Positions 2,401-31,783 of a stretch of DNA of 64,000 bases are shown here, one piece after another. The DNA is from Armatimonadota bacterium (GTDB lineage Bacteria > Armatimonadota > Fimbriimonadia > Fimbriimonadales > ATM1). Position numbers and translations under genes: made by a program. Every line of letters starts with the position of its first letter. Positions within the stretch are counted from its first letter, which is position 1. Location: positions 1-64,000 of the forward strand of contig QEUM01000003.1 of the NCBI GenBank assembly GCA_003577165.1. Reading direction: 5' to 3'. The notes beneath the pieces are model-generated. The model worked only from the letters and a program-made list of their open reading frames with translations. It was not told the origin of the DNA and did not search any database.

Positions 2401-3030
2401 ATGGCGAACGATAACAGCATCCCGTCGGCCACACTCTCCCGGCTCGCGATCCTCTACCAAGCCCTCCTCGACGCGAAGACCCGGGACGTGGACTGCCTCA
2501 GCAGCGCCCAGATCGGCGCCCTCACCGGCATCCCTGCCGCCCAGGTCCGGAAGGACCTCAGTTCCTTCGGAGAGCACGGAGTCCCCGGCGTCGGATACAG
2601 GGTGGACGACCTGCTCGCCAGCATTGCCCGATGCCTCAAGATCGATCAGACGCGGCGGTTCGCCCTCGTCGGAGCGGGCCGCCTCGGCCAGGCCCTCGCC
2701 TCCTACACGGGCCTTGCGAAGATGAATTTCGAACTGGTGATGGCATTCGACAACGACCCCGCTAAGATCGGGAAGCACGCAGGCGACGCACTCATCGAGC
2801 CAGTCACCGAGATGCCTGCTCGCCTGAAGCAGGAGGCGATCAAGGTTATCGTGCTCACCGTGCCGGCGTCCGCTGCGCAAGCGACCGCCGAAGCAGCGAT
2901 CTCCGGGGGGGCGCGCTGGATCCTGAACTTCACGCCCGCGATCCTCAAAGTGCCCGATGACTGCATCGTGCGCGACGTCTCGTTCACCAACGAGTTCGCC
3001 GTCCTCGCACACTACATGGAAGAAGGATGA
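2401..3030 (+). CDS. rex: Redox-sensing transcriptional repressor Rex
   Basis: 209 aa, the usual length for Rex. Residues about 8-80 form the winged-helix DNA-binding domain (A-A-Q-V-R-K-D-L-S-S-F-G, residues 46-57, is the family's recognition-helix signature). Residues about 85-180 form a Rossmann NAD(H)-binding fold with G91-A-G-R-L-G96. The C-terminal helix (F-T-N-E-F-A-V-L-A-H-Y) is the domain-swapped dimer arm. Rex proteins sense the NADH/NAD+ ratio and repress fermentative and respiratory genes when NADH is low. The gene overlaps nadB by 4 bp (ATGA), so it is translationally coupled to an NAD biosynthesis enzyme, which links redox sensing to cofactor supply. Its targets cannot be read from this window. 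Confidence 0.95.
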   Translation: MANDNSIPSATLSRLAILYQALLDAKTRDVDCLSSAQIGALTGIPAAQVRKDLSSFGEHGVPGVGYRVDDLLASIARCLKIDQTRRFALVGAGRLGQALASYTGLAKMNFELVMAFDNDPAKIGKHAGDALIEPVTEMPARLKQEAIKVIVLTVPASAAQATAEAAISGGARWILNFTPAILKVPDDCIVRDVSFTNEFAVLAHYMEEG

Positions 3031-4568
3031 AAACGAAGGAATACGACTTTGTCGTCATAGGGAGCGGAATCGCGGGACTTTCCTTTGCTCTGCGCTGCGC
3101 CGATCACGGCAGGGTACTCATTGTCACGAAGTCTTCGATCGCCGACACGAACACGCAGTGGGCGCAGGGCGGAGTCGCGGCCGCCGTCGGCGAGGACGAC
3201 TCGTGGGAGCTTCACGAAGAGGACACTCTCAAAGCCGGCGCAGGTCTCTGCGATGTCGAAGCGGTTCGCTTCCTCGTGAAAAACGCGAGGCCGAGCCTGG
3301 AGTGGCTCATCTCCGTCGGCGCGCAATTCGATATGGACCGAGCGAACGGCCTGCCCAAACTGAAACTTGGCCTGGAGGGGGGGCACAGCAGGCACAGAAT
3401 CGTGCACAGCGCCGACCGCTCAGGATGGGAGATCGAACGCGCGCTCTCGGAAGCCCTGGTCAAACATCCTTCCATTCAGATCCAAGAATTCGCCTTCGCG
3501 GACGCGCTCTGCATCTCTAACGATCGGTGCGTTGGCGCGCTCCTGCGACCGAAAGATCGAGAGCCCTACATCGCCGCCGCAGGATCCACGATGCTCGCCA
3601 CGGGCAGCTGCTGCCAGGTTTATCGGTTCACGACGAACCCGGAAATCGCGACGGGTGACGGCGTCGCCCTCGCAAACGCCGTCGGAGCGAAGATCGAGAA
3701 CATGGAGTTCATACAGTTCCACCCGACGACTCTCTACAGCCGCAGACACCGCGGCTTCTTAATCACGGAGGCGATTCGCGGCGAGGGAGCGATCCTGCGA
3801 ACGATACATGGGCGACGGTTCATGTTCGACTACCATCCCGACGCGGAACTCGCGCCGAGAGACGTCGTCGCTCGCGCGATTCATGCGGAAATCCTGAAGG
3901 AAGGCGTGCCGTTCGTCCACCTCGACATGACTCACATGCCGAAGGATCACGTCGACAAAAGATTCCCTACGGTCACGCGGAAACTCAAGGAACTCGGCAT
4001 CGACGTGCACCGCGACCCGATCCCGGTCGTTCCCGCAGCCCACTATCAGTGTGGCGGCGTCGTCACGAATCTCGACGGAGAAGCCTCGATTCCCGGCCTC
4101 TACGCCGCGGGAGAAGTGGCCTGCACAGGCGTGCACGGAGCGAACCGCCTTGCCAGCAACAGCCTCCTCGAAGCCCTGGTTTTCGGCCTGTCCGCCGCAG
4201 ACCATGCGACGACCCACAAGCGAGACCCACAGAGGGGAGAGCCACATCCTTCGAGCGTTCCCGTCGTCTCTCGGCTCGAAGTGTCAGGAGTGGTGCGTCG
4301 CCTTAAGCGGCTAATGTGGGAGAACGTCGGAATCGTGCGCCGCAATCGCGGCCTCCGTTTCGCGGTCGAGGAGATCGAGGATTTGCGTGACTCCGTTCAG
4401 CCGGAAAGCGATTTCTACGTCACGGGCGCCCAGGCGCGCAACCTTCTCATCTGCGGTTCGATCATCGCGCGATCAGCAAGAGACCGGAAGGAGAACGTCG
4501 GCCTTCACTATAACGAGGACCTCGCGCGGCCTTCGGCACCGCCCCCCCGGGCGCGAGCCGGATCCTGA
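3027..4568 (+). CDS. nadB: L-aspartate oxidase (de novo NAD biosynthesis)
   Basis: 513 aa. NadB oxidises L-aspartate to iminoaspartate for quinolinate synthase. The N-terminus carries the FAD-binding motif V-I-G-S-G-I-A-G-L-S (residues 10-19), then T-Q-W-A-Q-G-G-V-A-A typical of the succinate dehydrogenase/NadB flavoprotein family. Other conserved parts are G-G-H-S-R-H-R near residue 120, H-Y-Q-C-G-G-V and G-L-Y-A-A-G-E-V near the end of the FAD domain. The end R-K-E-N-V-G-L-H-Y-N-E-D is the usual NadB C-terminus, followed by about 15 extra Pro/Arg-rich residues. Those extra codons overlap the convergent gene 4462-6195 by 107 bp. nadA and nadC are not in the window. Confidence 0.95.
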   Translation: MKTKEYDFVVIGSGIAGLSFALRCADHGRVLIVTKSSIADTNTQWAQGGVAAAVGEDDSWELHEEDTLKAGAGLCDVEAVRFLVKNARPSLEWLISVGAQFDMDRANGLPKLKLGLEGGHSRHRIVHSADRSGWEIERALSEALVKHPSIQIQEFAFADALCISNDRCVGALLRPKDREPYIAAAGSTMLATGSCCQVYRFTTNPEIATGDGVALANAVGAKIENMEFIQFHPTTLYSRRHRGFLITEAIRGEGAILRTIHGRRFMFDYHPDAELAPRDVVARAIHAEILKEGVPFVHLDMTHMPKDHVDKRFPTVTRKLKELGIDVHRDPIPVVPAAHYQCGGVVTNLDGEASIPGLYAAGEVACTGVHGANRLASNSLLEALVFGLSAADHATTHKRDPQRGEPHPSSVPVVSRLEVSGVVRRLKRLMWENVGIVRRNRGLRFAVEEIEDLRDSVQPESDFYVTGAQARNLLICGSIIARSARDRKENVGLHYNEDLARPSAPPPRARAGS

Positions 4569-6195
4569 GTTTCCACATCCCCGCCTCGACAGGCGACACT
4601 TTCCAAGTCGCGATTCGCACATCCCCTTCGGCTGCGATGCGCTCCACAGACGCGATGTTCGAAATCGGCGACACGGTCGCGCCATCCGGCAGCACGAGAC
4701 GAACCACGCTCTCCTTGCCGAACGGGCTCAACCCCGACAGTTCCGCTCCGTCGGCGAGGGGAACGAAGGTCGCGTCGGGCGAGAGCAAGCGCACGGGTGA
4801 AGCGATGCTGGCCCACCACTCCGGCGGCTTCGCCTGAAGCGTCGCCAGCCTCGGATAAACCCAACTTCGCAACTCGCCCAAAACGTCTGCAGCCCCTGCG
4901 GCGTTCGCCATCGCAGCGAGAAGGCGACTCTGCTCGTCGCCGCTGATCGCGCCGGCAATTGCGAGGATCGCAGCTGTCTGTTTGCGCTCCGCGTCGTCTT
5001 TGCCGATCGGCAACCAAGACACCCAGTCTATGGACGCCAGCAATCCGGCCAACTCGCCGTCACTTCCCTCGCGAGCCATGGATCCGAGCGCGTGGGAAGC
5101 CGCGAGCGACGCGCCGCTCCCGTCCCGCGCGCAGAACAACGTGAGTTTCGTGACGGGCTCCTGTGTGCGCGGGGCATCTGACAGAAATTCATCGTGCGCG
5201 TCTGTAAGGGCGCGGATCGTCAAATCGTCGGCCTGTCCCAGCAAAACGGAAAGCGCGGCATCGCACACGGACTCCGCGTCGGCATAGGCCACGGTTCCAG
5301 GTCGAAACGGATCTTCGCCGTTCCAGACGAGAGCAAGTCCGGGGTACAGAGGCCTGCACAGAAATCGCAGCGTCAGTTTCTTCTCAAGGCTCATCCGCAA
5401 CCCAGTGCCCCCCCCAAGTGTCGCCCGCTTGTAAGGCGAAGCGACCTTGAGCAGGCCGGACGATGAAGCGCGGAACGCAACCTCCGGGATGACGGCGAAT
5501 TCGGTGTCGAAAGTCCAGGTCGCGGTGATGCCGTTCGAGTCCACGACCGTCTCGACGCTCTGCACTTTCGGCGCGGGCCTCAGGAGTCGTTCTGCGATGG
5601 ACGAAACCTGCTGCGCCACTTGGCCAAGCGCCGCCGCACCGTTCACCGACAGGGAGTCGTTTCCGTAGGGCGTCCGAATTCGCGCCCAGCCTACGTAGGG
5701 CTTCGTCGTCTTCACGCGAAATCCGCCGTCGGTCCTCTCCGCGATCAGCCCGCACGGCCGGGTGGCGAATCCGACGAAGATCGGAGGGCGCTTGTCTGGC
5801 CAGGTGAGCACGACCCACTTCACGTCCGGCGTCGGCAACCCCGGACGCACGCTCGCATCCGCCCAGGTCAGAGTCGGCGGTCCGACTCCCGAACCAGTCA
5901 ATGTGAGCCCGTCTCGGCACTCCACGGAGAAGCCGAGTCCGGTGGCTTCGTAGGCGAGTCGAATGGGCGAACCGGGCGCCGGGCGCATCGAGATCGCTTT
6001 GAAATAGCGCGACACGCCCTGGAAACTGACGTCCTTCGTCTCCGTGCCGAACCGAATGGCCACCCCCCCCTCGGCGAATGGCCGGAAGTAAGTCGGCCCA
6101 ACTTCCATCGTGTGGAGATTGTGGACGTGTGTAAACGCGAACTGTCCGAACCCGCCGGCCGCGCTCGCAGCCGCGAGGCTAACGGATAGGAACAT
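4462..6195 (-). CDS. Secreted 577-aa protein, last gene of the exoprotein operon (unknown function)
   Basis: The start overlaps the end of the upstream barrel gene by 17 bp, so it is probably translationally coupled to it. Residues 1-15 are a short hydrophobic leader (M-F-L-S-V-S-L-A-A-A-S-A-A). The first half is beta-rich and may hold carbohydrate- or protein-binding sandwich folds. Residues about 310-430 look helical (T-I-R-A-L-T-D-A-H-D-E-F-L) and the end returns to a beta-like segment. No catalytic motif or known family is recognised. Its 3' end runs 107 bp into nadB on the opposite strand. Two C8 tracts (5408-5415, 6063-6070) lie in the gene but do not break it. As the distal gene of a six-gene exported-protein operon it likely acts in the envelope or outside, but this is inference from context. 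Confidence 0.75.
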   Translation of the reverse strand: MFLSVSLAAASAAGGFGQFAFTHVHNLHTMEVGPTYFRPFAEGGVAIRFGTETKDVSFQGVSRYFKAISMRPAPGSPIRLAYEATGLGFSVECRDGLTLTGSGVGPPTLTWADASVRPGLPTPDVKWVVLTWPDKRPPIFVGFATRPCGLIAERTDGGFRVKTTKPYVGWARIRTPYGNDSLSVNGAAALGQVAQQVSSIAERLLRPAPKVQSVETVVDSNGITATWTFDTEFAVIPEVAFRASSSGLLKVASPYKRATLGGGTGLRMSLEKKLTLRFLCRPLYPGLALVWNGEDPFRPGTVAYADAESVCDAALSVLLGQADDLTIRALTDAHDEFLSDAPRTQEPVTKLTLFCARDGSGASLAASHALGSMAREGSDGELAGLLASIDWVSWLPIGKDDAERKQTAAILAIAGAISGDEQSRLLAAMANAAGAADVLGELRSWVYPRLATLQAKPPEWWASIASPVRLLSPDATFVPLADGAELSGLSPFGKESVVRLVLPDGATVSPISNIASVERIAAEGDVRIATWKVSPVEAGMWKLRIRLAPGGAVPKAARGPRYSEGRRSPSGLLLIAR

Positions 6196-8107
6196 TCAAC
6201 AACTGGAACCCGAACTTCTGTCGGTCGAGGGAGTAAGTAACTCCGATTTCTCGAGTGCCGAGCCTGTAGCCGAGGAACATGGTGGTGTCGCGATACTGAA
6301 TTCCCAAGTACTCATCGAGCGTGAAAGAGCCGCCCACTCGCCATAAGGAACTGATTCGCCAGTATCCGTCCACAAACGCAGTCGTGCTGTCAATGTCCAG
6401 GCTCGTGCCGCCAAAGAGGCTCAGGCTGACATTACCAGCATCGAGGTAGTAAGTCCCCGAGACTCGGTGCTTGCCCATGAAGGAAGACATGAAGCTGTCA
6501 TCCGTGTAGTCGTACGACACTCGAAGGCTGCTGTTGGGGCCGAGTGGCGTCGCAACACCAAGCGTTCCGATGACGCCGATGTCATCACCGGCGTTTTTGC
6601 CCCAGAGCCTCGACAGCGTAGCCGACGCGGTCAAGTTCGCGCCAGTCCAGAGTGGCTGCGGCGTGAGGACGAACTGCGTGCGAAGTCCCGCGCCTTCCTG
6701 ATCGCTCGTCGTGGGCCCGTAAACGACATGCGACGAGTTCGCGGTGAGTCCAACCGTGTAACTCAGGGGCAGATCGCCGAGTCTCTGCATGTTGGTCGTG
6801 ACGCTGAAGTCGAGTCGCTGGGTTTCATACGGCGTCCCGCGAAGGGATCGGCTGCTCGTCCCGCTTAGCGCCATGTTGAACCCTTCGAAGGCGCGGCTCA
6901 AAGTCAGCGCTCCATACAACGTTCTGAAACCTGGAAAATCAATGCTCGCATTTGCAGATGTTCGATCATCGAAGCGTTGCGTGTGGCGCCAATTGATCCC
7001 CATGTCGTCCCGGCCGATGCCGGTGAGAGTGAAACTCCCCTCCATGGTGTCGCCCTTCATGTAACTGTTCTCCCACTCCATGAAGAGACCCGAACTCGCC
7101 GTCGCCCCCCTCCCGTAATCCTGACCGCTTCGAAGCCTCAACACGCTTTTGAAACTCGGCGAAAGGCGCACGTAGTAGGGGTAGTTCAGAACGAGTGCGT
7201 CGTTCTGAAAACTGACGATCTGGTCGCCGATGATCCCGGAATCGGAGTGAGGGCGAATCGCGTAGAGCGGCATACCCAACACCTTCGTGTCCCCAACGTA
7301 CAGTTCCGCTTGATGGAACTGCACTTCGCGATGCGGGAAGATAACGGCTCGGTTGGCGTGCACGCTCGACGAGGCGACGCCGATGTCTGCAAACTCGTAC
7401 TCGTTTGCCGGCATGCCGTTATCCGACAGAGTTCCTTCTGCTGCGGTGAGCACGTAGTATCCAGCGCGGCCGTCTATGACTGCAATCGCGCTGCCTCGCC
7501 GCCGGTTGAGCAAGTACCGGAGCCGTCTGCATTCGAGAGTCTTCTCGCCCACTCGGAGGTTCGCATCGGTTGCGATCACCACCATCGTGGAGACGTTCAC
7601 TTGGAGGTCCTTCGCTTCGATCGTGATGTCTTTGAATCGGATCTTTGGAAGTTCCGTCTCGCCGGATGCCGACAGAGTGTCGATCTCAGGGAAATACGCG
7701 AGGTACTCGGGGCTGTCGATTTCGATGTACTGATTAAGTGATGCGAGCGTCGCTCGGTCCTTGACGAATTCGATGTCGATGGAATTGATGATCCCGACGC
7801 CTGTCGCGGAAGCCGTGACTTTCGCTACGCCCGGAATCGTCGGCGCGACGAGCACTGCACGCGCGGTACCCGAAGTCGTCTGCACGTCCTGTTGGCGAAA
7901 GGTGCCGGCGCTGGTCGTGAAGCGCACGAGCGTTCCGTCCGAGGGCACCTGACCGCTTGAGGTTCGCACGTCCGCCGTGATGGTGACGGTCGAGTAGCCG
8001 TCCGCGATCGAGATCGCCGGGTGGGCCGTCAACTTAATCGAGCCTGCGCAGAATGCGAGCGCGCTTGCGGACATGCAGATCGCCAGCGTCCAGAACCGGA
8101 GCAACAT
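6179..8107 (-). CDS. LptD/OstA-like outer-membrane beta-barrel protein with N-terminal Ig-like domain
   Basis: 642 aa. Residues 1-21 are a signal peptide. Residues about 22-115 look like a bacterial Ig-like (invasin Big_1-type) domain, with V-P-S-D-G-T-L-V-R-F-T-T and V-A-K-V-T-A-S-A. Residues about 150-320 resemble the OstA/LptA beta-jellyroll (I-R-F-K-D-I-T-I-E-A-K-D-L and R-A-V-I-F-P-H-R-E). From about 325 to the end, alternating aromatic/polar strands suggest an outer-membrane barrel, ending in strand-like segments. It resembles organic-solvent-tolerance proteins but is shorter than typical LptD, and the Ig-like N-terminus is unusual. It could be an LPS-type transporter or a dedicated export pore for this operon; the latter is speculation. 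The ATG follows GGAGGTAAC and overlaps the upstream stop as TGATG. Confidence 0.75.
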   Translation of the reverse strand: MLLRFWTLAICMSASALAFCAGSIKLTAHPAISIADGYSTVTITADVRTSSGQVPSDGTLVRFTTSAGTFRQQDVQTTSGTARAVLVAPTIPGVAKVTASATGVGIINSIDIEFVKDRATLASLNQYIEIDSPEYLAYFPEIDTLSASGETELPKIRFKDITIEAKDLQVNVSTMVVIATDANLRVGEKTLECRRLRYLLNRRRGSAIAVIDGRAGYYVLTAAEGTLSDNGMPANEYEFADIGVASSSVHANRAVIFPHREVQFHQAELYVGDTKVLGMPLYAIRPHSDSGIIGDQIVSFQNDALVLNYPYYVRLSPSFKSVLRLRSGQDYGRGATASSGLFMEWENSYMKGDTMEGSFTLTGIGRDDMGINWRHTQRFDDRTSANASIDFPGFRTLYGALTLSRAFEGFNMALSGTSSRSLRGTPYETQRLDFSVTTNMQRLGDLPLSYTVGLTANSSHVVYGPTTSDQEGAGLRTQFVLTPQPLWTGANLTASATLSRLWGKNAGDDIGVIGTLGVATPLGPNSSLRVSYDYTDDSFMSSFMGKHRVSGTYYLDAGNVSLSLFGGTSLDIDSTTAFVDGYWRISSLWRVGGSFTLDEYLGIQYRDTTMFLGYRLGTREIGVTYSLDRQKFGFQLLNVPIR

Positions 8108-8730
8108 CAGTTACCTCCAGACGGCGGCTTTGGGGGGGCCATCAGTTTTTCGACGGCTTGAGGGAACGAAAAGTCGACAAATTTCTTCCAGGCTGCCGCG
8201 GCAGCGGCGGACTCGTTCTCTCCGGCCGCCTCGACGCTTGTTGCAAAGGAGCCCACGAGCCGGGCGCCCTTCACGTCATAGGCCTCGAGCATCGCCGACA
8301 GCTTCACGGTCTTCGATTCCGCGTCGTAGCGGTACGAGTCTACAGCGGCGGCGACGGCGAAGTCGGCTCGCAAGAGCGAGCCAAGCACCACGGAGCGATA
8401 ACGGTTGTTGACCTTCCCCGTGAACGGCGGCAATAGCATTGCCGCCTGGATGGTGCCCTCTGCGAGTGCACGCTTGATTCCCGCGTGTGTGCGGGAGTAC
8501 GAGATCAGATAGAACTTTTCGGTTGCGTTCGCGGCTGCGAGAAGAGCCGTCGTCCCAGTCGTTTCGAAGTTGTAGGCATCCGTGCTGAGCGCGGCTTCAC
8601 CCAACCCGACGGGGAAGATCACCAGGCTCTTCTTCGTTTGCGCGGGTAGCGGCAAAAGGGCAACGGCCAGGGCAAGGATCGAAAGCACCTTGCCCAGGCC
8701 GTTTGCTCGCGTGCCGACGTTGCGGCGCAT
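8107..8730 (-). CDS. Secreted 207-aa hypothetical protein
   Basis: A 31-residue N-terminus with an Arg-rich start and the hydrophobic run V-L-S-I-L-A-L-A-V-A-L-L, ending P-L-P-A-Q, is a good signal peptide. The mature part has alternating beta strands and helices, including I-S-Y-S-R-T-H-A-G-I-K-R-A-L and A-A-A-A-A-W-K-K-F-V. This is reminiscent of the periplasmic N-terminal domains of TolB or CsgG-like lipoproteins that handle named variables. That resemblance is weak, and I do not assign a family. The C-terminus is Pro-rich (A-P-P-K-P-P-S-G-G-N). The stop overlaps the start of the barrel gene by 1 bp (TGATG), so it is probably co-translated with it and may work as its periplasmic partner. 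Confidence 0.7.
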   Translation of the reverse strand: MRRNVGTRANGLGKVLSILALAVALLPLPAQTKKSLVIFPVGLGEAALSTDAYNFETTGTTALLAAANATEKFYLISYSRTHAGIKRALAEGTIQAAMLLPPFTGKVNNRYRSVVLGSLLRADFAVAAAVDSYRYDAESKTVKLSAMLEAYDVKGARLVGSFATSVEAAGENESAAAAAAWKKFVDFSFPQAVEKLMAPPKPPSGGN

Positions 8731-8741
8731 ACGAGTCCTGA

Positions 8742-11465
8742 TTACCGGACGACCACCACCGGCCGGGTCACGCGAACGCGTTGACCCTCAGCCGTCTGCG
8801 CCACGATTTCCACCATGTAGTTGCCGGGGGCGACTGCGCGCCCCTGATTGTCGCGCTTCAGCCAGGTCGCGGTATTGACGCCCGGGTTCTCAGCCCTTCC
8901 GCGCGAGATGGTGTACACCTCGCGTCCGTTGGTGCCGAGAATGCGCACCGACACTTCCGCCGCGGCCGACAGGCCGTACTGGATCGTGATGGGCGCGTTG
9001 CGATCTCTGGTCGGCGACGTAATTGTGACGTTGCCGATCACGGGTCGGGATACCGAACCCGGTTCGATGATGACGTCGAAGTTGCGGGCGATGGGCTCCG
9101 TCACCGTGAAGGTGTAAGCCGAGTTCTGCCTCATGTCTCGCGTCTGCCCGTTCTGCTTGTCGACCAAGCGGACTCGGACGTTTCGCGGCAATTGCGAAAT
9201 GTTCGGCCACGTGATCGAGTACGTTCCGGGCTTCGTGGACATGAACTGGGCGTTGAACGTGAGCGTCGGTCTCGCCTCGCGAATGTCCTGCGTCCAGTTG
9301 ATCGGATCGTCGCCGTTCGGTTGGCGGACGAGTCCGAATCTCATCGCGCTTCCCGGACGAGCCGGCGGTTCCGGAGCGGACAGGTTATCGGCTTCGCCGA
9401 CGGACGGCGCAACACCAACGTAGTTGCTCACGTCCTGTTCGCCTTCACCGCGAACCACCAACTGAAGTCTCCACTTCCTGTCGGTCGTCACGCGCCAATC
9501 GTCAGCAGATCTTGGGGACCCGGGCAGGCCGCGAAGGAAGATCGGGGGCCAGTAGAGAGTCATCGGCTGCGAGATGTTCGCGTAGATCCAGTACCCAACG
9601 CCGGGCGGAATCAACTGAGAGGAGTCCGACGAGAACGTGTAGTCGGACAAGTTCGTGTCGTATCGGAACACGGTGCCTCGAATCCACCCACGTTGCGTGA
9701 GTTCCGTCCAAGTCAGGACTTCCGTCGGGTCGCCGCTGCTGATCGCGTTCAGCGTGTTCAACTGGACGCTATACAGATACGGGTTTGCGACGAGGTTCCA
9801 GCCGCGCCGAATTAGGAACGGGAAGTTTCCGTTGATCTCGCCGCCCGCGCTCGTAGCGCCTGTGAGCGGCTGAGCCGGGAAGTCGTTCGTGGCGAGAATC
9901 CAAGTTCCTCGACCGCGAGCCGCAGTCGTAGACGTCACGTAACTTTGCGTGACGACGTCCCAGTTGAAGGCCGTGAAGTCCGCCGGGGTCGACAGCCCGA
10001 GAGCAACCGCCCAGTTCGCATTCGCGAGTTGCCACGGCATCCCGATTAGTTGCGGGCCGGTGACCAGGCTCACCTGCGGGCTCGCCGCGATGTGCAGTAT
10101 CGACTCGATCGTCTTCGTCCGTCCTGGGTTCGGTGTCACTGTGACGCGTATCGGCACAGGGCCGGCGACAGTTCCATCCGTCTCACAGAACCACGATAAC
10201 CGGTGCACGCCACGAGGCGGAATGCTCGCGATGACTTTCGTGACCTGCTCGCCCGGGATGAGTTCGACGCCTGGCGGCAGCTGAATCGTGCAGTTGACGT
10301 TCGTGACTTCCTGCTCCTCGTTGATGCGGCCGTACTGGTTGTCGACCCAGAGGACGACTTCGAACGGGTTCGGATCGAGCGAGTTGGAAGGGTTGTCCCA
10401 CGCGATCATTGGCGGCGTTTCGAGCGCGATTGCCGTGTCGCCGTCAACACCGAGGTTCAGGTCGTGCTCTGCCCAGGGGACCGAGACGTAGTAGACGATT
10501 CGCCGCGTGCCACCGGCTGCGACACTCACAGGATTGTAGAACAGACAGAACGCCGTGTTATTGATCAAGGCGTCGGGCAGAACTGTCGAAGTCCATGTTC
10601 CACCCATCGCGAAGTTAAATTCGCCGACGACAAGCTCATCCGACTGCGTCTGGTCCGGAAGCCGGAGTGGGTCCGGCCCCGTCGGAATTCGCAATCCCGG
10701 ATAGGGCAGCGATTGTCGGAAACTAATGTCGATGAACTTGGGATACGTCAGGGGGTTGGTGGCGCGAGTGTAGCGGCTCTGTATGACGATCGGGCGCCCG
10801 GTCGGCGTCTGGACGTAGGCATTACCGTTCCAACCGGATGCTCCGCCGACGAAATTCAGCATTCCAAGCCATGACGCGTGCCTCAGTCCGACCTGGACGG
10901 GGGTCGCATTCGTGTTCGTAAGGTCCCATTGGAATCGAATCGCATCTCCGACCGACTGTGCGAGCAGCGTCGCGGTGACGCCGCCCCCCCCGTCGGCAAT
11001 CGCTGTGAGCCTGCGGAAGGACGCGTTGACGACGACGAGGTCAAAGCCGTCCGCTCCCCACTTCGTATCCTCGGTGTCGCCCTGGTCGTCGATCACCCGG
11101 ATCGTGGCGTAACTCCAGTTGTTCCCTGCCCAGGGCGCGCCCATCGTGATCGCGCAGTTCTGGTCGCTGCCATCGAGGGCGGATCCGGTCGATCCGTTTC
11201 GGATCATCAGGTAGCCGGGGACGTTCTGAGCGTCGTTTCCCGGCGGGACGCCGCACGGACTCGTAGGCCCCCATGTGACGGTTCCTGCCACACCCAAGCC
11301 GAACACCAGAATGGCGTTTCCAACCGCCGCCATATTCCAGTCGACCGAGATCGGCTGCGTGTTCGTGGGGTCGAAACAGACGTCCCAACCTGGCTGCGCC
11401 TTTGCCGCGGAAACAAGCCCAAGGGCCCCGACCGCAGCGACAACTGTGCCGAATCTTCTCACCAT
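8742..11465 (-). CDS. Large secreted protein with FlgD-like C-terminal domain (907 aa)
   Basis: Signal peptide at residues 1-23 (V-V-A-A-V-G-A-L-G-L-V-S-A-A-K-A). The N-terminal about 450 residues are beta-rich with a Cys-containing start (W-D-V-C-F-D-P) and several PapD/Ig-like stretches. The C-terminal half shares blocks with the neighbouring subtilase: R-G-W-N-L-V-A-N-P against P-G-W-N-Q-V-G-D-P, and V-F-R-Y-D-T-N-L against I-F-R-Y-E-L-T-L. Both end in a FlgD-like Ig fold with G-R-A-V-A-P-G-N-Y and a terminal T-A-E-G-Q-R-V-R-V-T-R-P. The shared module suggests common sorting, attachment or processing. No enzymatic motif is seen. It follows the subtilase gene by 19 bp with a purine-rich ribosome site (AGGAAG). 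It may be a surface or matrix protein and a substrate of the protease; both are inference. Confidence 0.8.
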   Translation of the reverse strand: MVRRFGTVVAAVGALGLVSAAKAQPGWDVCFDPTNTQPISVDWNMAAVGNAILVFGLGVAGTVTWGPTSPCGVPPGNDAQNVPGYLMIRNGSTGSALDGSDQNCAITMGAPWAGNNWSYATIRVIDDQGDTEDTKWGADGFDLVVVNASFRRLTAIADGGGGVTATLLAQSVGDAIRFQWDLTNTNATPVQVGLRHASWLGMLNFVGGASGWNGNAYVQTPTGRPIVIQSRYTRATNPLTYPKFIDISFRQSLPYPGLRIPTGPDPLRLPDQTQSDELVVGEFNFAMGGTWTSTVLPDALINNTAFCLFYNPVSVAAGGTRRIVYYVSVPWAEHDLNLGVDGDTAIALETPPMIAWDNPSNSLDPNPFEVVLWVDNQYGRINEEQEVTNVNCTIQLPPGVELIPGEQVTKVIASIPPRGVHRLSWFCETDGTVAGPVPIRVTVTPNPGRTKTIESILHIAASPQVSLVTGPQLIGMPWQLANANWAVALGLSTPADFTAFNWDVVTQSYVTSTTAARGRGTWILATNDFPAQPLTGATSAGGEINGNFPFLIRRGWNLVANPYLYSVQLNTLNAISSGDPTEVLTWTELTQRGWIRGTVFRYDTNLSDYTFSSDSSQLIPPGVGYWIYANISQPMTLYWPPIFLRGLPGSPRSADDWRVTTDRKWRLQLVVRGEGEQDVSNYVGVAPSVGEADNLSAPEPPARPGSAMRFGLVRQPNGDDPINWTQDIREARPTLTFNAQFMSTKPGTYSITWPNISQLPRNVRVRLVDKQNGQTRDMRQNSAYTFTVTEPIARNFDVIIEPGSVSRPVIGNVTITSPTRDRNAPITIQYGLSAAAEVSVRILGTNGREVYTISRGRAENPGVNTATWLKRDNQGRAVAPGNYMVEIVAQTAEGQRVRVTRPVVVVR

Positions 11466-11484
11466 TGTCTTTACACCTACTTCC

Positions 11485-14400
11485 TTATCGCGTTACCGTA
11501 ATCGGCGACGTGGTTCTCGCCCTTTGACCATCCGTGGTTTCTGCCGTAATTTGGAGCATATAAACTCCCGGAGCCACCGCGGCTCCACGGCTGTCGCGCC
11601 CGTTCCACGTAACCGACTGAGTTCCGGGACTCCGCGAAGCGGAGCCGAGGTCCGCAATCACCTTTCCACCGGCGCCGACGATGCGCAGGCTGACCGTGGA
11701 TTCAACGTTTACGCTGTAGTTGATGGTGAACTGTCCGCCCGCGCGGCTGCCGCCCGCAATCCGAACGCCGCTGACGACCAGCCTTCCGACTGCGTCAGGG
11801 AGAACCGTAACCGTGAACGATCGCGGCGTCATCTGTTCGTCCGCCGTGAACCGGTAACTCCCGTTCGTCTGCATGGACACAGTCCGTCCCGTTGCCATAT
11901 CGCGAAGCGTCATCCGGAGACGACGGTTCGGCGACTGGACCTCCCTCCATGTGACGGTTACGTCCTCGTTCGGTTTCGGCGGTCGGACCGAGAATGTCCA
12001 AACTTCTTTGCCGCCGCTCAACTCTCGGAGTTCCTGGGTCAGCGCCTGCTCGGTTGTGCGGGCTGTGAACCAGAGGGAGACGGAGCCGAGCGCCGCCGGG
12101 GGCTCCGGAACCACGTCGAAGAGTTCGTTCAGGCCCCGAGTGGTTCCGAACACGTTGTTGGAGTCGCTCGTTCCACCGGATGTGGCCGTCAGAGAGTACG
12201 CCCAGCCATCGCCTCGAATGTGCGTGCTGTTGTTGGCACGGCTCCTCTCTGGCGCTTCGGTTGGCGGCACAGAGACCCAGCACTCTTCGATCGCGTAGAT
12301 CCAGTGCGACTCGAACGGCACGAACTGTCCGCCCGGCGCGCTTCGCCAGGTGTATTCCTTGGAGCCGCCAAGCGTGAGTTCATATCGGAAGATCTGAGGC
12401 TTGACGATTCGCTCCGAGATCGCTTGGGCCAGCGTCAGAACGCGACCGCTCGGAATCTCGGTGATCAGACACGCGTTCCAGTCCACGAAAAACTCGAACG
12501 GATCGCCGACCTGGTTCCAGCCCGGCTTCAACTTGATCTTGTAGCCCTCGACCCCAGGTTCTGGACCGAGTTCAACGTCGAGCACGGCATCCGACGGCGC
12601 CTTAAGCCACCAGCCGACCCCGTAGGGTCCGTTCAGAGGCACGTCTACGCCTCCAGGCAACTGCTGGAACGACTCGAAGGAGGACGGCGTGAAGCCCGCG
12701 TCCTGCGTGTTCGCCCCGAATTCGCTGTATTGAGCGTAGCTACCGGTCGGGTTGCCGAGGAGATCGATGCTCGGAATCCATCGGAACAGTTCGAATCCAA
12801 CCGGGAAGATCGTCTCAGGCTTGCGGCCGCCCGGAGGCGACGACTCGCCGTCAATGCTGTACGGAAGCGAGATCATGTTCACTCCCGCTGGGACCACGTG
12901 GTGACGGATGGTGACGAGGATCTCACCCGAGATTTCGACGCCATCGGTCGGACCAGTCGCTTCGCCGGTGCAGATGATCTTCCAGTCGCCCTCGCTGATG
13001 CCGCCGCCGTCGATTAATCTCGCGTAGCCGCGGAGCCAGCTGACGTTCGGCAGAATCGGATCCGGGGTGATTGTCCAGTTCGAGGACGGGATCGCGACGG
13101 GGCCGTAACTTCCGTCGGCGCGAGCAATCTCCACGACCGGAGCCGGCGCAGCGACGCTTACCTTGAACAGGCGGAATTCGAAGTTGACGGTCTGATACGG
13201 GAACGTCGAGTTCTGATTGGGCTTGATGCCCTTCACGCTCGGAACGATGAACGTCATCGCAGATGCGACGTCGATCTCTCCGTAGCCTGTGTCCAGGTTC
13301 GGCACCGGGTCTCCCGGCGCGACCACCGCGGTCAACTTAAGCGTGGGGACGATCTCAAAACTGGCCATGCCCGCTGAATGCAGAAGCGCCGCTGCGCCGA
13401 CTGCCGTCGGACAGGCATACGAGGTGCCGCCTCCGTTCGGATCGTAGAGCAACGGGTCGTAGATGAGTTCCCATACTCCGATCGTGTCCGCGCTCGGAGC
13501 GGCGATGTCCACCTTCCGGAGGCCGTCGGGGCTGCCCGGCGAACTGTAACTGGTCGGGAATCCCTTCTCAAGCGCGGCGGACACCCATTTCGTGGCCGCG
13601 ACGGACGTGACCTGTGCGAAACTCGCCGGCCAGCCCGCCGGGAACGGCCGACTGTTGCCCGAAGCCGCGAAAAGCACGACGCCGCGGTCCGCGATCTTCT
13701 GCAGCAGCAGGTCCGACGTGTCGTCCGGGAAGCCCGCGCCATAGCTCATGTTCTGCGCAATGATCCGCGGGTTGGAGGGCTCATCGAGCCAGTCGATGAC
13801 CCACTGGTAGCCATCATAGATTAGAGCGAAGGGGAGCGACCCCGACGGAGTTGCGATTCGTACCGGGATAAGTTTGACCCCCTCCCACGTCACGCCCGCC
13901 ATTCCAATTCCGTTATCAGTTCCGGCGATGATGACGCTCGCGGTCATGGTGCCGTGCGAGAACCCCGTGCCGATCGGAAAGTCGGGCCGCGGGTCGTCGC
14001 TGCCGTCATAGGCGTTGTATCCGCTGAAGAACCGTGAGTTGTTTGCCGCATCCCGAAAGTCCGGGTGCTCCATGTAGAAGTTGTCGTCCAAGTCCACGAC
14101 GAAGACGCCGTCCAGCCCCTTGTGGACGGCCCACGCGCCCGAAGGCCCAGGAAGGCCGATCTGGCGCAGGTTCCACTGCCCTTCTGACAGTTCCGCAGTG
14201 GTCGACCAGAGCGGGTCGTTCGGAACCTGATACTTCTGGGCGTAGTGGTTAAGGATCGCGTGCTGCACGCGCACGTCGCCGCGAAGCGCGTCGAGACGCT
14301 CTTGTGAAAGCGTCCGTTCGTTCGCGACGTTCGGATCCGGAAGCCGCAGCAGATACATGCCGGGCGTTCGCAGAGGCCGCACGATGACCAAACCGTATTG

Positions 14401-14565
14401 GTTGGCCAGCGCCTGCGCCTGCGGGAGCGTCGTACCGGGCGACATCCGTACGATGATTTCGCCCTTTACATAGGGGAAGTCGGTGTCCGCGGCGAAGGCG
14501 CCGACTGCCATCGACACGGCCAACGCGATTCCCGCGAGCCACAGTTTCAACGCTCTCATCATCAT
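11485..14565 (-). CDS. Secreted subtilisin-like serine protease (S8) with FlgD-like C-terminus
   Basis: 1026 aa from the first of three in-frame ATGs. GAGGAGG abuts the first ATG, so the third ATG at 14559 has the best spacing. Signal peptide 1-26, then an inhibitor-I9-like propeptide (Y-V-K-G-E-I-I-V-R-M near 32-41). The peptidase S8 domain spans about 125-440. The catalytic Asp is in V-V-D158-L-D-D-N, the His in S-H204-G-T, oxyanion Asn in A-S-G-N304, and the Ser in G-T-S382-Y-A-C-P. The stretch 440-700 is beta-rich, and from about 560 to the end it is homologous to the 907-aa neighbour. The last ~70 residues are a FlgD-like Ig domain (G-A-A-V-A-P-G-V-Y-M-L-Q-I). All catalytic residues are present, so it should be active outside the cytoplasm. 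It is the second gene of the exoprotein operon. Confidence 0.92.
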   Translation of the reverse strand: MMMRALKLWLAGIALAVSMAVGAFAADTDFPYVKGEIIVRMSPGTTLPQAQALANQYGLVIVRPLRTPGMYLLRLPDPNVANERTLSQERLDALRGDVRVQHAILNHYAQKYQVPNDPLWSTTAELSEGQWNLRQIGLPGPSGAWAVHKGLDGVFVVDLDDNFYMEHPDFRDAANNSRFFSGYNAYDGSDDPRPDFPIGTGFSHGTMTASVIIAGTDNGIGMAGVTWEGVKLIPVRIATPSGSLPFALIYDGYQWVIDWLDEPSNPRIIAQNMSYGAGFPDDTSDLLLQKIADRGVVLFAASGNSRPFPAGWPASFAQVTSVAATKWVSAALEKGFPTSYSSPGSPDGLRKVDIAAPSADTIGVWELIYDPLLYDPNGGGTSYACPTAVGAAALLHSAGMASFEIVPTLKLTAVVAPGDPVPNLDTGYGEIDVASAMTFIVPSVKGIKPNQNSTFPYQTVNFEFRLFKVSVAAPAPVVEIARADGSYGPVAIPSSNWTITPDPILPNVSWLRGYARLIDGGGISEGDWKIICTGEATGPTDGVEISGEILVTIRHHVVPAGVNMISLPYSIDGESSPPGGRKPETIFPVGFELFRWIPSIDLLGNPTGSYAQYSEFGANTQDAGFTPSSFESFQQLPGGVDVPLNGPYGVGWWLKAPSDAVLDVELGPEPGVEGYKIKLKPGWNQVGDPFEFFVDWNACLITEIPSGRVLTLAQAISERIVKPQIFRYELTLGGSKEYTWRSAPGGQFVPFESHWIYAIEECWVSVPPTEAPERSRANNSTHIRGDGWAYSLTATSGGTSDSNNVFGTTRGLNELFDVVPEPPAALGSVSLWFTARTTEQALTQELRELSGGKEVWTFSVRPPKPNEDVTVTWREVQSPNRRLRMTLRDMATGRTVSMQTNGSYRFTADEQMTPRSFTVTVLPDAVGRLVVSGVRIAGGSRAGGQFTINYSVNVESTVSLRIVGAGGKVIADLGSASRSPGTQSVTWNGRDSRGAAVAPGVYMLQITAETTDGQRARTTSPITVTR

Positions 14566-14607
14566 CCTCCTCTACACCTAAAAGTGGTTCCCCGCTCAGC
14601 GCCTGCC

Positions 14608-16374
14608 TTAATTAGAAGGCGGAGGCGGCGGCGGAGTTACGCGATCGAACTGATTCGGAAGGCTCTGCACGTATCTCAGACCCAAGATGTCCTTGACCGG
14701 ACCGGGGATGTCCGCACTGTTCCGGGCGCCCACGCGCCAATACAGGCGCTGTGACGCGGGGAAGACTCCGGAGATGTCGATCGGGTCGGTGCTGACTGAG
14801 CCAGGCAGGATGCTCTCGACGGTCGCAATGAGACGGACGTTGTTCGCATTCGAGAACGTCGGCGACGTCGAGATTTCGACTGCGTACTGGTTCGCGCCTG
14901 GAACTGCGGTCCACGAGAACTGCACCGTGTTGTTCACGTCCGTCGCGCCGTTGGGCGGCGAAATCAGAGTCGCCTGATCGAGCGGCGTTGACGGGCCCTT
15001 CGCGGGCTCGCGAGTGGTCGTGAAGAAGCAGTCGGTGATCTCACCGCCGGTTTCGGCGCCGGGCACGTCGAGCGAACTCAACTTGTAGACCAAGCTCAAC
15101 GTGTACATGTAAGTCGTTCCTGGGATGATCCCGGGCGCCGGGTTCTCGAAAGCCTCTTGGCCCGGGTCTTCGACGCAGGCGGGACCGCCAACGATGGATC
15201 CCATGTCTCGCCAGTTGCGCGTTCGCGCAGCCACGCGGTCATAGACCGAGTTAAAGGAACCGGGCACGACTTCCACGGGCGTATCCGCGTAGTCGGTGCG
15301 CCAGACCTGCCACTCGACTCGATTCTGCGTGCCGAGATTGAAGATGTTGGGATGCCAACTGCACTTTACGACGGGGCTAACTCCGTCCTCGGCCAGCGCG
15401 GCCTCGGTCCAGAACTCGCCGGGCGAGTTGCCCTGGCCTTTGTTCATCGTGAGGGCGATGAGGCCGACCACGAGCACCGCAAGCAGCGCGCCGGTCGTAT
15501 CGCCGCGCCGCACGGTTCGCGTTCGCGGACCTCGCGCAGTCAACTGAATTTCAGGAAGTTTGTCGTAGAGAACTCGAGCCTTGTCGCCAGGCGCGACGCC
15601 CTTAATGGAGCTTCGGACAGTTGCCTCTGCTTCCTGCGTGCTGACGTCTGAGATGTGAATCGTAGCGACTTGTTCGCGGCCGCGCGTCACGACCATGTCC
15701 ATGCCGACTTTGATTCCGTCGCGGCTTCCCTTGTTGATCTTCACGAACTTGGACGTCGGAGTCGCGAGGACCGTGGCGACCCCAATCTGCTGCTGAATGA
15801 TCGTCGTTACACTCTTCTGTGCAGCGAAGTTAATCGCTTCGTTGAGAACCGCATCGTCCGACACGTCGCCCGGACGCTCCGAAGACTGTCCGAACTCGGC
15901 CGTGCCCAGAACAGAAAGGCCGGAGGCCACGTCGATGCCGCGAACGAGCAGCACGACGTCAGCCGACTTGCCGTTGGCGCCCTTGTTGATGCGCGCCTTC
16001 TGCACTTCGCCGGTGATCACGACTTCGGCGCCGATCGCCTGACCCAGGCGAAGCAACTCCAGTTTGTTCGTGATCGGCTTGCTCAGTTGCAGTTCATCGA
16101 TCACGCGGTCCACGGATTCCTTCTCGATCAGGTCCGCGCGGTTGGAACCGATGAGCAGCGTGGTCACGGCGTCCGATGCGACGCCACCGAGCGCATCTCC
16201 GCCAACGCCGGACTTGTTCACGAAGTCCACGACCGCCCACTGCGATCGTGTCGTCGAAAACTGAGCCTCGGCTCTGCTTACCGGAAATGCAATGACGAGA
16301 ATGTTGACGAGCAGCGAAGCGATAACCGATTGGCTCGTTGCTCGTGCAAATTTGGATTTGAGAAAGGTCCTCAT
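14608..16374 (-). CDS. CsgG/FlgT-like exported protein with C-terminal FN3-like domain
   Basis: 588 aa, first gene of the six-gene operon. Signal peptide 1-38. Residues about 44-198 resemble CsgG (W-A-V-V-D-F-V-N-K-S-G, then L-I-E-K-E-S-V-D-R-V-I-D-E and L-G-Q-A-I-G-A-E-V-V-I-T-G-E). CsgG forms the curli export pore in Proteobacteria, and the fold also occurs in FlgT. Residues about 205-275 resemble the FlgT C-terminal domain (K-I-N-K-G-S-R-D-G-I-K-V-G-M). A hydrophobic segment, A-L-L-A-V-L-V-V-G-L-I-A-L-T-M, lies near 295. Residues about 480-570 read as a fibronectin-type-III-like domain (A-N-Q-Y-A-V-E-I-S-T-S-P-T-F). No lipobox is present, unlike CsgG. AAGGAGG lies 12 bp before the ATG. The architecture suggests an envelope assembly or secretion component. 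Confidence 0.75.
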   Translation of the reverse strand: MRTFLKSKFARATSQSVIASLLVNILVIAFPVSRAEAQFSTTRSQWAVVDFVNKSGVGGDALGGVASDAVTTLLIGSNRADLIEKESVDRVIDELQLSKPITNKLELLRLGQAIGAEVVITGEVQKARINKGANGKSADVVLLVRGIDVASGLSVLGTAEFGQSSERPGDVSDDAVLNEAINFAAQKSVTTIIQQQIGVATVLATPTSKFVKINKGSRDGIKVGMDMVVTRGREQVATIHISDVSTQEAEATVRSSIKGVAPGDKARVLYDKLPEIQLTARGPRTRTVRRGDTTGALLAVLVVGLIALTMNKGQGNSPGEFWTEAALAEDGVSPVVKCSWHPNIFNLGTQNRVEWQVWRTDYADTPVEVVPGSFNSVYDRVAARTRNWRDMGSIVGGPACVEDPGQEAFENPAPGIIPGTTYMYTLSLVYKLSSLDVPGAETGGEITDCFFTTTREPAKGPSTPLDQATLISPPNGATDVNNTVQFSWTAVPGANQYAVEISTSPTFSNANNVRLIATVESILPGSVSTDPIDISGVFPASQRLYWRVGARNSADIPGPVKDILGLRYVQSLPNQFDRVTPPPPPPSN

Positions 16375-16684: not shown

Positions 16685-17257
16685 CTACCGGGCGAGGCTG
16701 GACGCGAGTTGAATTGCCAGTAACTTAACGGCCGGCATCGGCTGATTGGTTCGGAGGATTCGGTCGGCGAAGGCAGCCTTGACTTCGGTAGGGAGTTGAA
16801 CCTGGAGGGCGAGGTCCACAGACCGGGCGTCCCCATCGTGCCTTTCCAAGAGCCTTCGCCTCCTCTCCTCCTCGCCCGCATCGCACACCCAGACCTCATC
16901 GAACGACCCCTGGCAGGAGGTCTCGATGAGGAGCGGCACCTCTGCGAAGGCCGGCGAAGAGGCGTCCGCCAGGCGATCGAGGAGCGCGTCCAGGGCCGCT
17001 CGGTGCGTGATTCGGTTGAGCGCCCGCCTCAACGACGGGTCCGTGAGGATCTGTCCTCGGACGAAGTCGCGGTTCAACGACCCGCCCGCCGTGGCCTGCG
17101 GCCCGAAGACCTCCCCGACGGTTCGTAGGTAATCGGCTGACGCCTGGATTTCGCGAACGACGTCGTCCGCGCTGACGCAGGCGTACCCGCGCTCTGAGAG
17201 AGCGGAGAGGACTGTGGACTTGCCGTCAGCGGGGCCTCCCGTGATCGCGATCCTCAC
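16685..17257 (-). CDS. coaE: Dephospho-CoA kinase
   Basis: 190 aa, typical for CoaE, which phosphorylates the 3'-hydroxyl of dephospho-CoA, the last step of coenzyme A synthesis. The N-terminus holds the P-loop G-G-P-A-D-G-K-S-T (residues 7-15), then the family's S-A-D-D-V-V-R-E, where most members have D-A-D. The segment F-A-E-V-P-L-L-I-E-T matches the conserved V-P-L-L-F-E of CoaE. D-E-V-W-V-C-D-A and a following Arg-rich lid (E-E-E-R-R-R-R-L-L-E-R) complete the kinase. The P-loop has Pro-Ala-Asp where Gly-Ser-Gly is usual, but the G-x4-G-K-S/T spacing is kept. It follows rpsA by 33 bp on the same strand, a likely two-gene unit. Confidence 0.93.
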   Translation of the reverse strand: MRIAITGGPADGKSTVLSALSERGYACVSADDVVREIQASADYLRTVGEVFGPQATAGGSLNRDFVRGQILTDPSLRRALNRITHRAALDALLDRLADASSPAFAEVPLLIETSCQGSFDEVWVCDAGEEERRRRLLERHDGDARSVDLALQVQLPTEVKAAFADRILRTNQPMPAVKLLAIQLASSLAR

Positions 17258-31688: not shown

Positions 31689-31783
31689 TGGCGGGAGCGT
31701 GTGGGAATCGAACCCACCCAACGCCGTTGAGACGTCGCACTGGTTTTGAAGACCAGAAGGCACACCAGCACCCATCCGCCCCC
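31689..31783 (-). tRNA. selC: Selenocysteine tRNA (anticodon UCA)
   Basis: 95 nt, as in E. coli. Minus-strand reading: acceptor GGGGGCGG (31783-31776) faces ACGCTCCC (31700-31693), with seven pairs (one G-T) and a G-A at the eighth position. Then come discriminator G and an encoded CCA (31691-31689). The anticodon arm CTGGT-CTTCAAA-ACCAG has anticodon TCA, which reads UGA. A long variable arm with an inner palindrome (GACGTC) and the T arm GTGGG-TTCGATT-CCCAC follow. The extended acceptor/T stack and long variable arm are diagnostic of tRNA-Sec and separate it from a UGA suppressor. Its presence implies SelA, SelB, SelD and selenoproteins elsewhere; none is in this window. Confidence 0.96.

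Follow-up and report, generated by a model that had tools for sequence, protein, structure and literature searches.

We describe a six-gene operon in a 64,000-nucleotide stretch of an Armatimonadota genome (contig QEUM01000003.1 of GCA_003577165.1, order Fimbriimonadales; hereafter the window) that is a real outer-membrane gene module, found across most of the phylum and apparently undescribed, whose function we infer. The window lies on contig 17 of this 2.75 Mb genome, and the operon occupies positions 4462-16374 as six minus-strand open reading frames (ORFs), g1 to g6 in order of transcription. Its constant core is an exoprotein, a ring-type protein and a barrel of the LptD type. We suggest, with a probability of roughly 0.4, that the operon is devoted to assembling or exporting, at the outer membrane, the large exoproteins encoded with it; a close rival is that the barrel provides a special glycolipid route.

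The six genes are tightly packed: three junctions are gaps, of 42, 19 and 11 bp, and two are overlaps, of 1 and 17 bp. All six proteins have an N-terminal hydrophobic leader as judged by eye. In this the ORFs agree with an initial annotation made from the letters of the window, which had listed six minus-strand genes with leaders and junctions of at most 42 bp and had proposed that they form one export or processing system.

Conservation of the operon in the Fimbriimonadales

The barrel gene, g5 (6179-8107), was matched in 58 of 61 genomes of relatives, as a single gene in each of the 58, rows with two matches being adjacent segments of one gene. We compared 20 relatives' loci at the level of the order, picked for holding g5. 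In all 20 (one partial) the exoprotein gene g3 adjoins g5 or is separated from it only by g4, and g1 is present in 19 (one partial), the contig of the twentieth stopping short of it. The remaining genes are less regular. g6 was found in 14 loci (one partial); g4 was found in 11, in three of which it was recognised from its position and alignment only; and g2 was found in nine, once as two broken ORFs (L026:6828-9949, an S8 protease gene split by assembly error or decay). Those genes that are present keep the same order in 20/20 loci, one of which (L030) spans only 3.8 kb, and because of this constancy we take the arrangement to be beyond chance. Within one family (f4), g1-g3-g5-g6 occurs in eight of nine loci, the ninth lacking a detected g6. 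The proposal of a linked system thus stands for its core, and the lack of linkage among relatives that would speak against it was not found; as a six-gene system it was drawn too wide, given the counts of 9, 11 and 14 for g2, g4 and g6.

A second sample gave a similar picture. A contig scan with the g5 sequence alone matched no relative; an eight-member g5 alignment yielded 31 named loci, with titles such as Fimbriimonadaceae bacterium, Chthonomonas sp. and Armatimonadetes bacterium, at least five of whose genomes are shared with the order-level sample. g3 adjoins g5 in 26 of the 31, and two others are contigs cut inside g5. The operon also occurs at a locus (L044) on a single contig of 5,231,762 bp (G037). 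Two of the named loci are unusual in other respects: L051 (JADZEW010000001.1) is a Fimbriimonadaceae operon on a contig titled Methanoregulaceae archaeon, a title that looks wrong, and at L047:8298-11917 g5-g6 lies downstream of a MurJ-like gene, named from reading its sequence, with neither g1 nor g3 alongside.

Conservation across the phylum

At the level of the phylum, a match to the g5 profile was obtained in 241 of 251 genomes; the weakest of these matches may be to the immunoglobulin-like (Ig) domain alone. We examined 20 distant loci, also picked for holding g5. A g4 homologue lies immediately upstream of g5 in 16, and 16 have an upstream exoprotein gene that matches the g2 or g3 profiles; two more carry an ORF of 1720 or 2643 amino acids (aa) with no match to either profile. 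Where g4 comes immediately before g5, exoproteins of 900-2800 aa are usually encoded ahead of the pair, and three of the four long upstream proteins scanned carry Ig-like or FlgD_ig domains. g1 is present in seven of the distant loci, and g6 is beside g5 in none, so that adjacency of g6 and g5 is limited to the Fimbriimonadales here.

The g5 protein is an LptD-type barrel

The 642 aa g5 protein was modelled with AlphaFold (mean predicted local distance difference test score, pLDDT, 77; predicted template modelling score 0.61) as three parts: an invasin-type Ig domain (Invasin_D3/Big_1; aa 24-116, 7760-8038), a beta-jellyroll of the LptD/OstA type (about aa 128-257, 7337-7726) and a predicted outer-membrane beta-barrel of about 20-24 strands (about aa 261-637, 6197-7327). 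The Ig domain is found at the N-terminus of 21/21 g5 members. In a Foldseek search of the PDB with the model, the first 15 matches are all LptD (E 6.9e-15 to 8.3e-11), with pilus ushers ranking below.

Profile comparison points the same way through an intermediate, a family of LptD-like proteins of about 520 aa from these genomes (alignment A7). g5 aligns with A7 over 392 columns (hhalign Prob 96.4, E 1.1e-9), and in a rerun without context pseudocounts the match persists over the jellyroll at E 9.8e-9, with the g1, g3 and g6 profiles at 0.045 or worse. A7 in turn places LptD at the top of 12 E. coli proteins (E 0.0013; next protein 0.08, reversed LptD 0.2, best shuffle 0.022), and the profile of the family aligns with E. 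coli LptD over the jellyroll with Prob 42.5 and E 0.00026. Compared directly with the same 12 proteins, g5 also has LptD at the top, but weakly (E 0.047; next 0.16), reversed LptD giving 0.065 and the best of 60 shuffles 0.081. A weak alignment (hhalign Prob 6, E 0.006) brings a stretch of g5 into register with the beginning of the E. coli LptD barrel; this stretch includes P280, P310 and P317, three prolines that are invariant or nearly so in the g5 family. Searched against PDB sequences, the g5 profile gave six matches at E up to 10, all in the Ig region and none to LptD. The Pfam LptD models PF04453, PF19838 and PF03968 match none of 21 g5 members at E 0.01, and PF04453 and PF19838 match 0/21 genomes, these two models matching just 2 and 1 of 14 control genomes. 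Because the direct match to E. coli LptD is weak, the kinship rests on the Foldseek ranking and the link through A7. We conclude that g5, as judged from profiles and its predicted fold, belongs to the LptD family, with a jellyroll followed by a C-terminal barrel, in keeping with the initial reading of an LptD/OstA-like barrel with an Ig-like N-terminus.

Three LptD-like proteins were found in this genome, g5 and a member of each of two further classes. The family of about 520 aa occurs in 39 of 41 genomes, in single copy in all but one, and its member here is on contig 6. LptD_N is matched by 6/23 members at E 0.01 and DUF3769 by one; five of the matches of the PF03968 genome search lie in this family, the rest in other proteins. 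The other class, of about 800 aa, adjoins lptF/G in this genome (contig 7) and in two reduced genomes considered below. LptF/G were found in 21/21 genomes including this one, with two matches in 20 of them, and LpxC in 21/21 of the same first sample; the lptF/G genes of this genome are on contigs 7 and 22, apart from the window. No lpt genes are found among the six genes of the operon or its coaE-, rpsA- and nadB-like flanks. As far as these flanks reach, the barrel stands apart from the lpt genes, and the outcome that would have spoken against the initial proposal, an ordinary LptD sited with lpt genes, was not found; it is another LptD-like protein that sits beside lptF/G. Pairs of lptF/G and the LptD-like protein of about 800 aa were seen at L172:10126-13618, L173:8187-11686 and L109:5347-8825; such a pair may serve a role other than lipopolysaccharide (LPS) transport, since it is kept in two genomes without an LpxC match.

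Ring-type domains in g1 and g4

The g1 protein (14608-16374; 588 aa) comprises a signal peptide, a domain of the PelC/CsgG/FlgT type (aa 43-198, 15781-16248), a domain like FlgT-C or the oligonucleotide/oligosaccharide-binding fold (about 199-286), a hydrophobic helix (residues about 294-309, 15448-15495) and a C-terminal beta-sandwich region. Searching with its model (mean pLDDT 82), Foldseek placed FlgT at the top (E 2.5e-12), followed by CsgG, PelC and GNA1162 among others. The VIA comparison of the ring-type domain placed PelC first (Z 13.8; root-mean-square deviation, rmsd, 2.7 over 128 residues), then FlgT (Z 12.5-12.7), CsgG (Z 12.3), TolB, GNA1162 and LpoB. Pfam CsgG is matched by three of 19 g1 members and the Pfam LptE model by one (E 0.007). 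The description of g1 as CsgG/FlgT-like thus holds in that FlgT heads Foldseek with CsgG close behind, and needs widening in that PelC heads VIA and the rings of PelC and FlgT are resembled as much as the CsgG pore. With Foldseek led by FlgT and VIA by PelC, we do not prefer a CsgG-type pore for g1.

g4 (8107-8730), first described simply as a small secreted protein, is indeed a secreted single-domain protein of 207 aa, and more than that. Its profile is homologous to the ring-type domain of g1 (hhalign Prob 97.4, E 1.5e-11), by which comparison it is a second copy of that domain.

The leader of the g1 family mostly ends in a site of the A-x-A|Q type, the helix is conserved in the family (modelled at pLDDT <50), and many g1 proteins have Gly/Thr-rich linkers in the C-terminal region. 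Of 19 Fimbriimonadales g1 proteins, 15 have both of two cysteines in this region and four have neither, a pattern expected of a disulphide; the losses fall in two families. The pairing is less clean in distant g1 proteins: L132 has the first cysteine only, and in L123, L127 and L139 a cysteine lies close to the second site but has no counterpart aligned at the first. A cleaved leader and a disulphide past the helix would put both sides of the helix outside the cytoplasm, and it might therefore cross the outer membrane.

The exoprotein, the protease and g6

The g3 exoprotein (8742-11465; 907 aa) has no known N-terminal domain and carries a C-terminal module of the g2 type that ends in FlgD_ig (Pfam E 1.3e-10). 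g2 (11485-14565; 1026 aa) consists of a signal peptide, a subtilase of family S8 (Peptidase_S8 E 1.7e-23) and the C-terminal module, likewise ending in FlgD_ig (E 1.9e-8); its Asp-His-Ser triad, D158, H204 and S382, is kept in 9/9 aligned g2 proteins. The g2 and g3 of the window cross-match each other's C-terminal parts in most relatives' loci, at 22-34% identity and E 8e-5 to 5e-39 (none in L031), and the module is common to g2, g3 and longer upstream proteins of other families. An intact S8 protease and a large exoprotein sharing its C-terminal module, both named in the initial annotation, are therefore borne out.

FlgD_ig stands at the end of most g3 proteins. The whole genome holds four FlgD_ig matches, the two above the cut-off being g2 and g3, and with only these four we rejected FlgD_ig as a genome-wide sorting tag. 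The ends of g2 and g3 also have weak NCBIfam matches to PorZ, PorU and Por_Secre_tail (E 0.0004-0.035), below the cut-off for a C-terminal domain of the type IX secretion system: g2 scores 16.0 bits against 23 for Por_Secre_tail, for which g3 is unlisted. The last gene, g6 (4462-6195), overlaps the end of g5 and encodes a 577 aa secreted protein with no assigned fold and no Pfam match, and so retains its earlier designation.

Loss of the operon in reduced genomes

In the samples searched, only two near-complete genomes of the order lack g5, both of 1.5 Mb and from one genus (G054 and G055 of g30; 97% complete). The same two account for both LpxC misses among 40 genomes. At the operon site, past coaE, there remains a g1 of 255-266 aa with ring-type domains only, its helix and C-terminal part gone; no g3, g5 or g6 remains there, this site being the only place where g3 and g6 were looked for. 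The matches of the A7 profile listed for the two genomes fall in the class of about 800 aa beside lptF/G, one of the two G055 matches not being among the matches listed. The pair may represent LPS loss within an LPS-bearing order. Eight other g5-less genomes among the 251 do have LpxC, and seven of these are fragmented or incomplete; G001 (86% complete, 480 contigs) likewise has LpxC and no g5 match.

Flanking genes

Upstream of the operon are a coaE-like gene for dephospho-coenzyme A kinase (16685-17257, minus strand) and a ribosomal protein S1-like (rpsA) gene, and a convergent nadB-like gene (3027-4568, plus strand) overlaps g6 with its 3' end; these names come from reading the sequence. 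A scan for promoters and terminators gave no more sites than shuffled sequence (2 against 2.2; 7 against 9.7) and was uninformative. Elsewhere in the window a selenocysteine tRNA gene is predicted at 31689-31783 on the minus strand.

Proposed function and alternatives

If the operon handles its own exoproteins, g3, and g2 with it, would reach the periplasm by Sec, marked as cargo by their common C-terminal module. g4, together with g1 where present, could form a ring under the g5 barrel, by analogy with PelC on PelB, and g5 would hand the cargo to the cell surface or fix it there, with g2, where present, perhaps trimming it. Linkage, the ring-fold partners, the common C-terminal module and the joint loss at the operon site argue for this proposal. 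A more elaborate form of it is also more doubtful: an LptD-family barrel redirected from lipid to protein and fed by a PelC/FlgT-like ring, with the g1 helix maybe crossing the outer membrane and the C-terminal domain outside, might assemble large surface proteins in nearly all Armatimonadota.

Several observations weigh against exoprotein handling. Characterised LptD proteins move LPS, not protein, and the loss of g5 together with LpxC suits a lipid role equally well. Linkage has its exceptions: g2, g4 and g6 are each absent from many loci; three of the named loci (L047, L048 and L054) have g5-g6 without g1 or g3, which also counts against the six-gene system first proposed; and g5 stands alone at two of the 20 distant loci, L135 and L138, although the contig of L135 also carries g4 and an ORF of 1448 aa, about 16 kb from g5. 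FlgD_ig is missing from the g3 of L029, L031 and L035, so this end cannot be an essential signal. Full-length superposition on LptD by Foldseek is poor (template modelling, TM, scores 0.23-0.32, rmsd 14-25 A), and VIA ranks other outer-membrane barrels higher (best Z 14.9, against 12.8 for LptD at rank 12), so that the barrel by itself is not decisive for LptD.

The close rival, which we regard as possible and somewhat doubtful, is that g5 is a specialised LptD that places a second LPS or other glycolipid in the outer membrane, perhaps as anchor or coat for the exoproteins, with g4 as a plug or ring partner replacing LptE. The jellyroll and barrel of g5, the proline stretch in weak register with E. 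coli LptD, the presence of LpxC throughout the first sample and the single LptE match among g1 members are all consistent with it, as is the finding that both genomes lacking LpxC lack g5 as well, and are alone in this among the near-complete genomes of the order. That co-loss, however, comes from one lineage with a much reduced genome, and the eight other g5-less genomes and G001 retain LpxC. Two other LptD-like proteins, one of them beside lptF/G, are already present in the genome, g5 is linked to exoprotein genes and not to lpt genes, and its Ig domain occupies the position at which, from the known structure, LptD would contact LptA. The same surplus of LptD-like proteins bears on a simpler idea, that g5 is the ordinary LptD of the Armatimonadota and its neighbours are incidental. 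The LptD fold, a near-universal presence in the phylum sample and the failure of PF04453 in all 21 genomes would fit; the separate family of about 520 aa, some of whose members match LptD_N, the protein of about 800 aa beside lptF/G and the recurrence of exoprotein linkage in distant families disfavour it, and we consider it improbable.

Transport may not be involved at all: g5 and the rings could form a structural envelope complex, an anchor for a surface layer built from g3 or giant proteins and a tether for the outer membrane. In favour of such a complex are the giant proteins (1700-2800 aa) encoded next to g4-g5 in many families, the Ig-like and FlgD_ig domains in most of the long upstream proteins scanned, the single g5 gene in nearly all relatives and the Gly/Thr-rich linkers of g1. 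We nonetheless think it unlikely, as a jellyroll with an LptD-type barrel makes an elaborate anchor and the protease has no obvious place in it. Lastly, the weak PorZ, PorU and Por_Secre_tail matches raise the prospect that g2 and g3 are cargo of type IX secretion by virtue of their FlgD_ig ends, the other genes of the operon being unrelated; as judged from the cargo domains, the scarcity of FlgD_ig in the genome and its absence from three g3 proteins make this very improbable.

Comparison with known systems

Our literature search, from which most subscription papers fell outside, returned no description of the operon's gene set, in agreement with the initial annotation. As far as the accessible parts of two reports extend, Armatimonadetes are reported with core LPS genes (PMC5007114) and Fimbriimonas ginsengisoli with 19 LPS genes (PMC4072686). 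The chromosome of F. ginsengisoli is reported to measure 5.23 Mb.

Most sampled genomes of this diderm phylum have a further LptD-family barrel, whose gene is linked to those for ring-type proteins and large exoproteins. LptD is known as the LPS gate of the outer membrane. Should g5 handle proteins, the protein exporters, which include Omp85 and SprA, would gain a class of LptD-type barrels; should it handle a lipid, this would point to a second route for glycolipids in bacteria whose surface has received little study.

g5 resembles LptD in its N-terminal jellyroll, its C-terminal barrel and its profile kinship to the two other LptD-like families of these genomes; it differs in its Ig domain, the lack of an LptD Pfam match and low full-length TM-scores, and in lying in an operon of its own with exoproteins and ring-type proteins, alongside two other LptD-like proteins. 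In two-partner secretion a large exoprotein (TpsA) is encoded beside its own barrel (TpsB), an Omp85 one, and the adjacency of the large exoprotein gene to a putative barrel here follows the same logic; unlike those systems, the barrel is LptD-like, and scans of g3 and of four long upstream proteins gave no two-partner secretion (TPS) domain. g1 pairs two domains as FlgT does and has a CsgG fold, yet it adds a hydrophobic helix and a C-terminal region, and neither flagellar nor curli genes occur among the six genes or the named flanks. A comparable arrangement is that of PelB and PelC, in which twelve PelC subunits are reported to make up a ring in the periplasm, seated on the PelB barrel (PMC12141448). 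Here, too, a PelC-type domain, in g1 and g4, is encoded with an outer-membrane barrel; in contrast to PelB and PelC, the barrel is of the LptD type, none of the six operon proteins has a Pfam match to polysaccharide synthesis, and the candidate cargo is protein.

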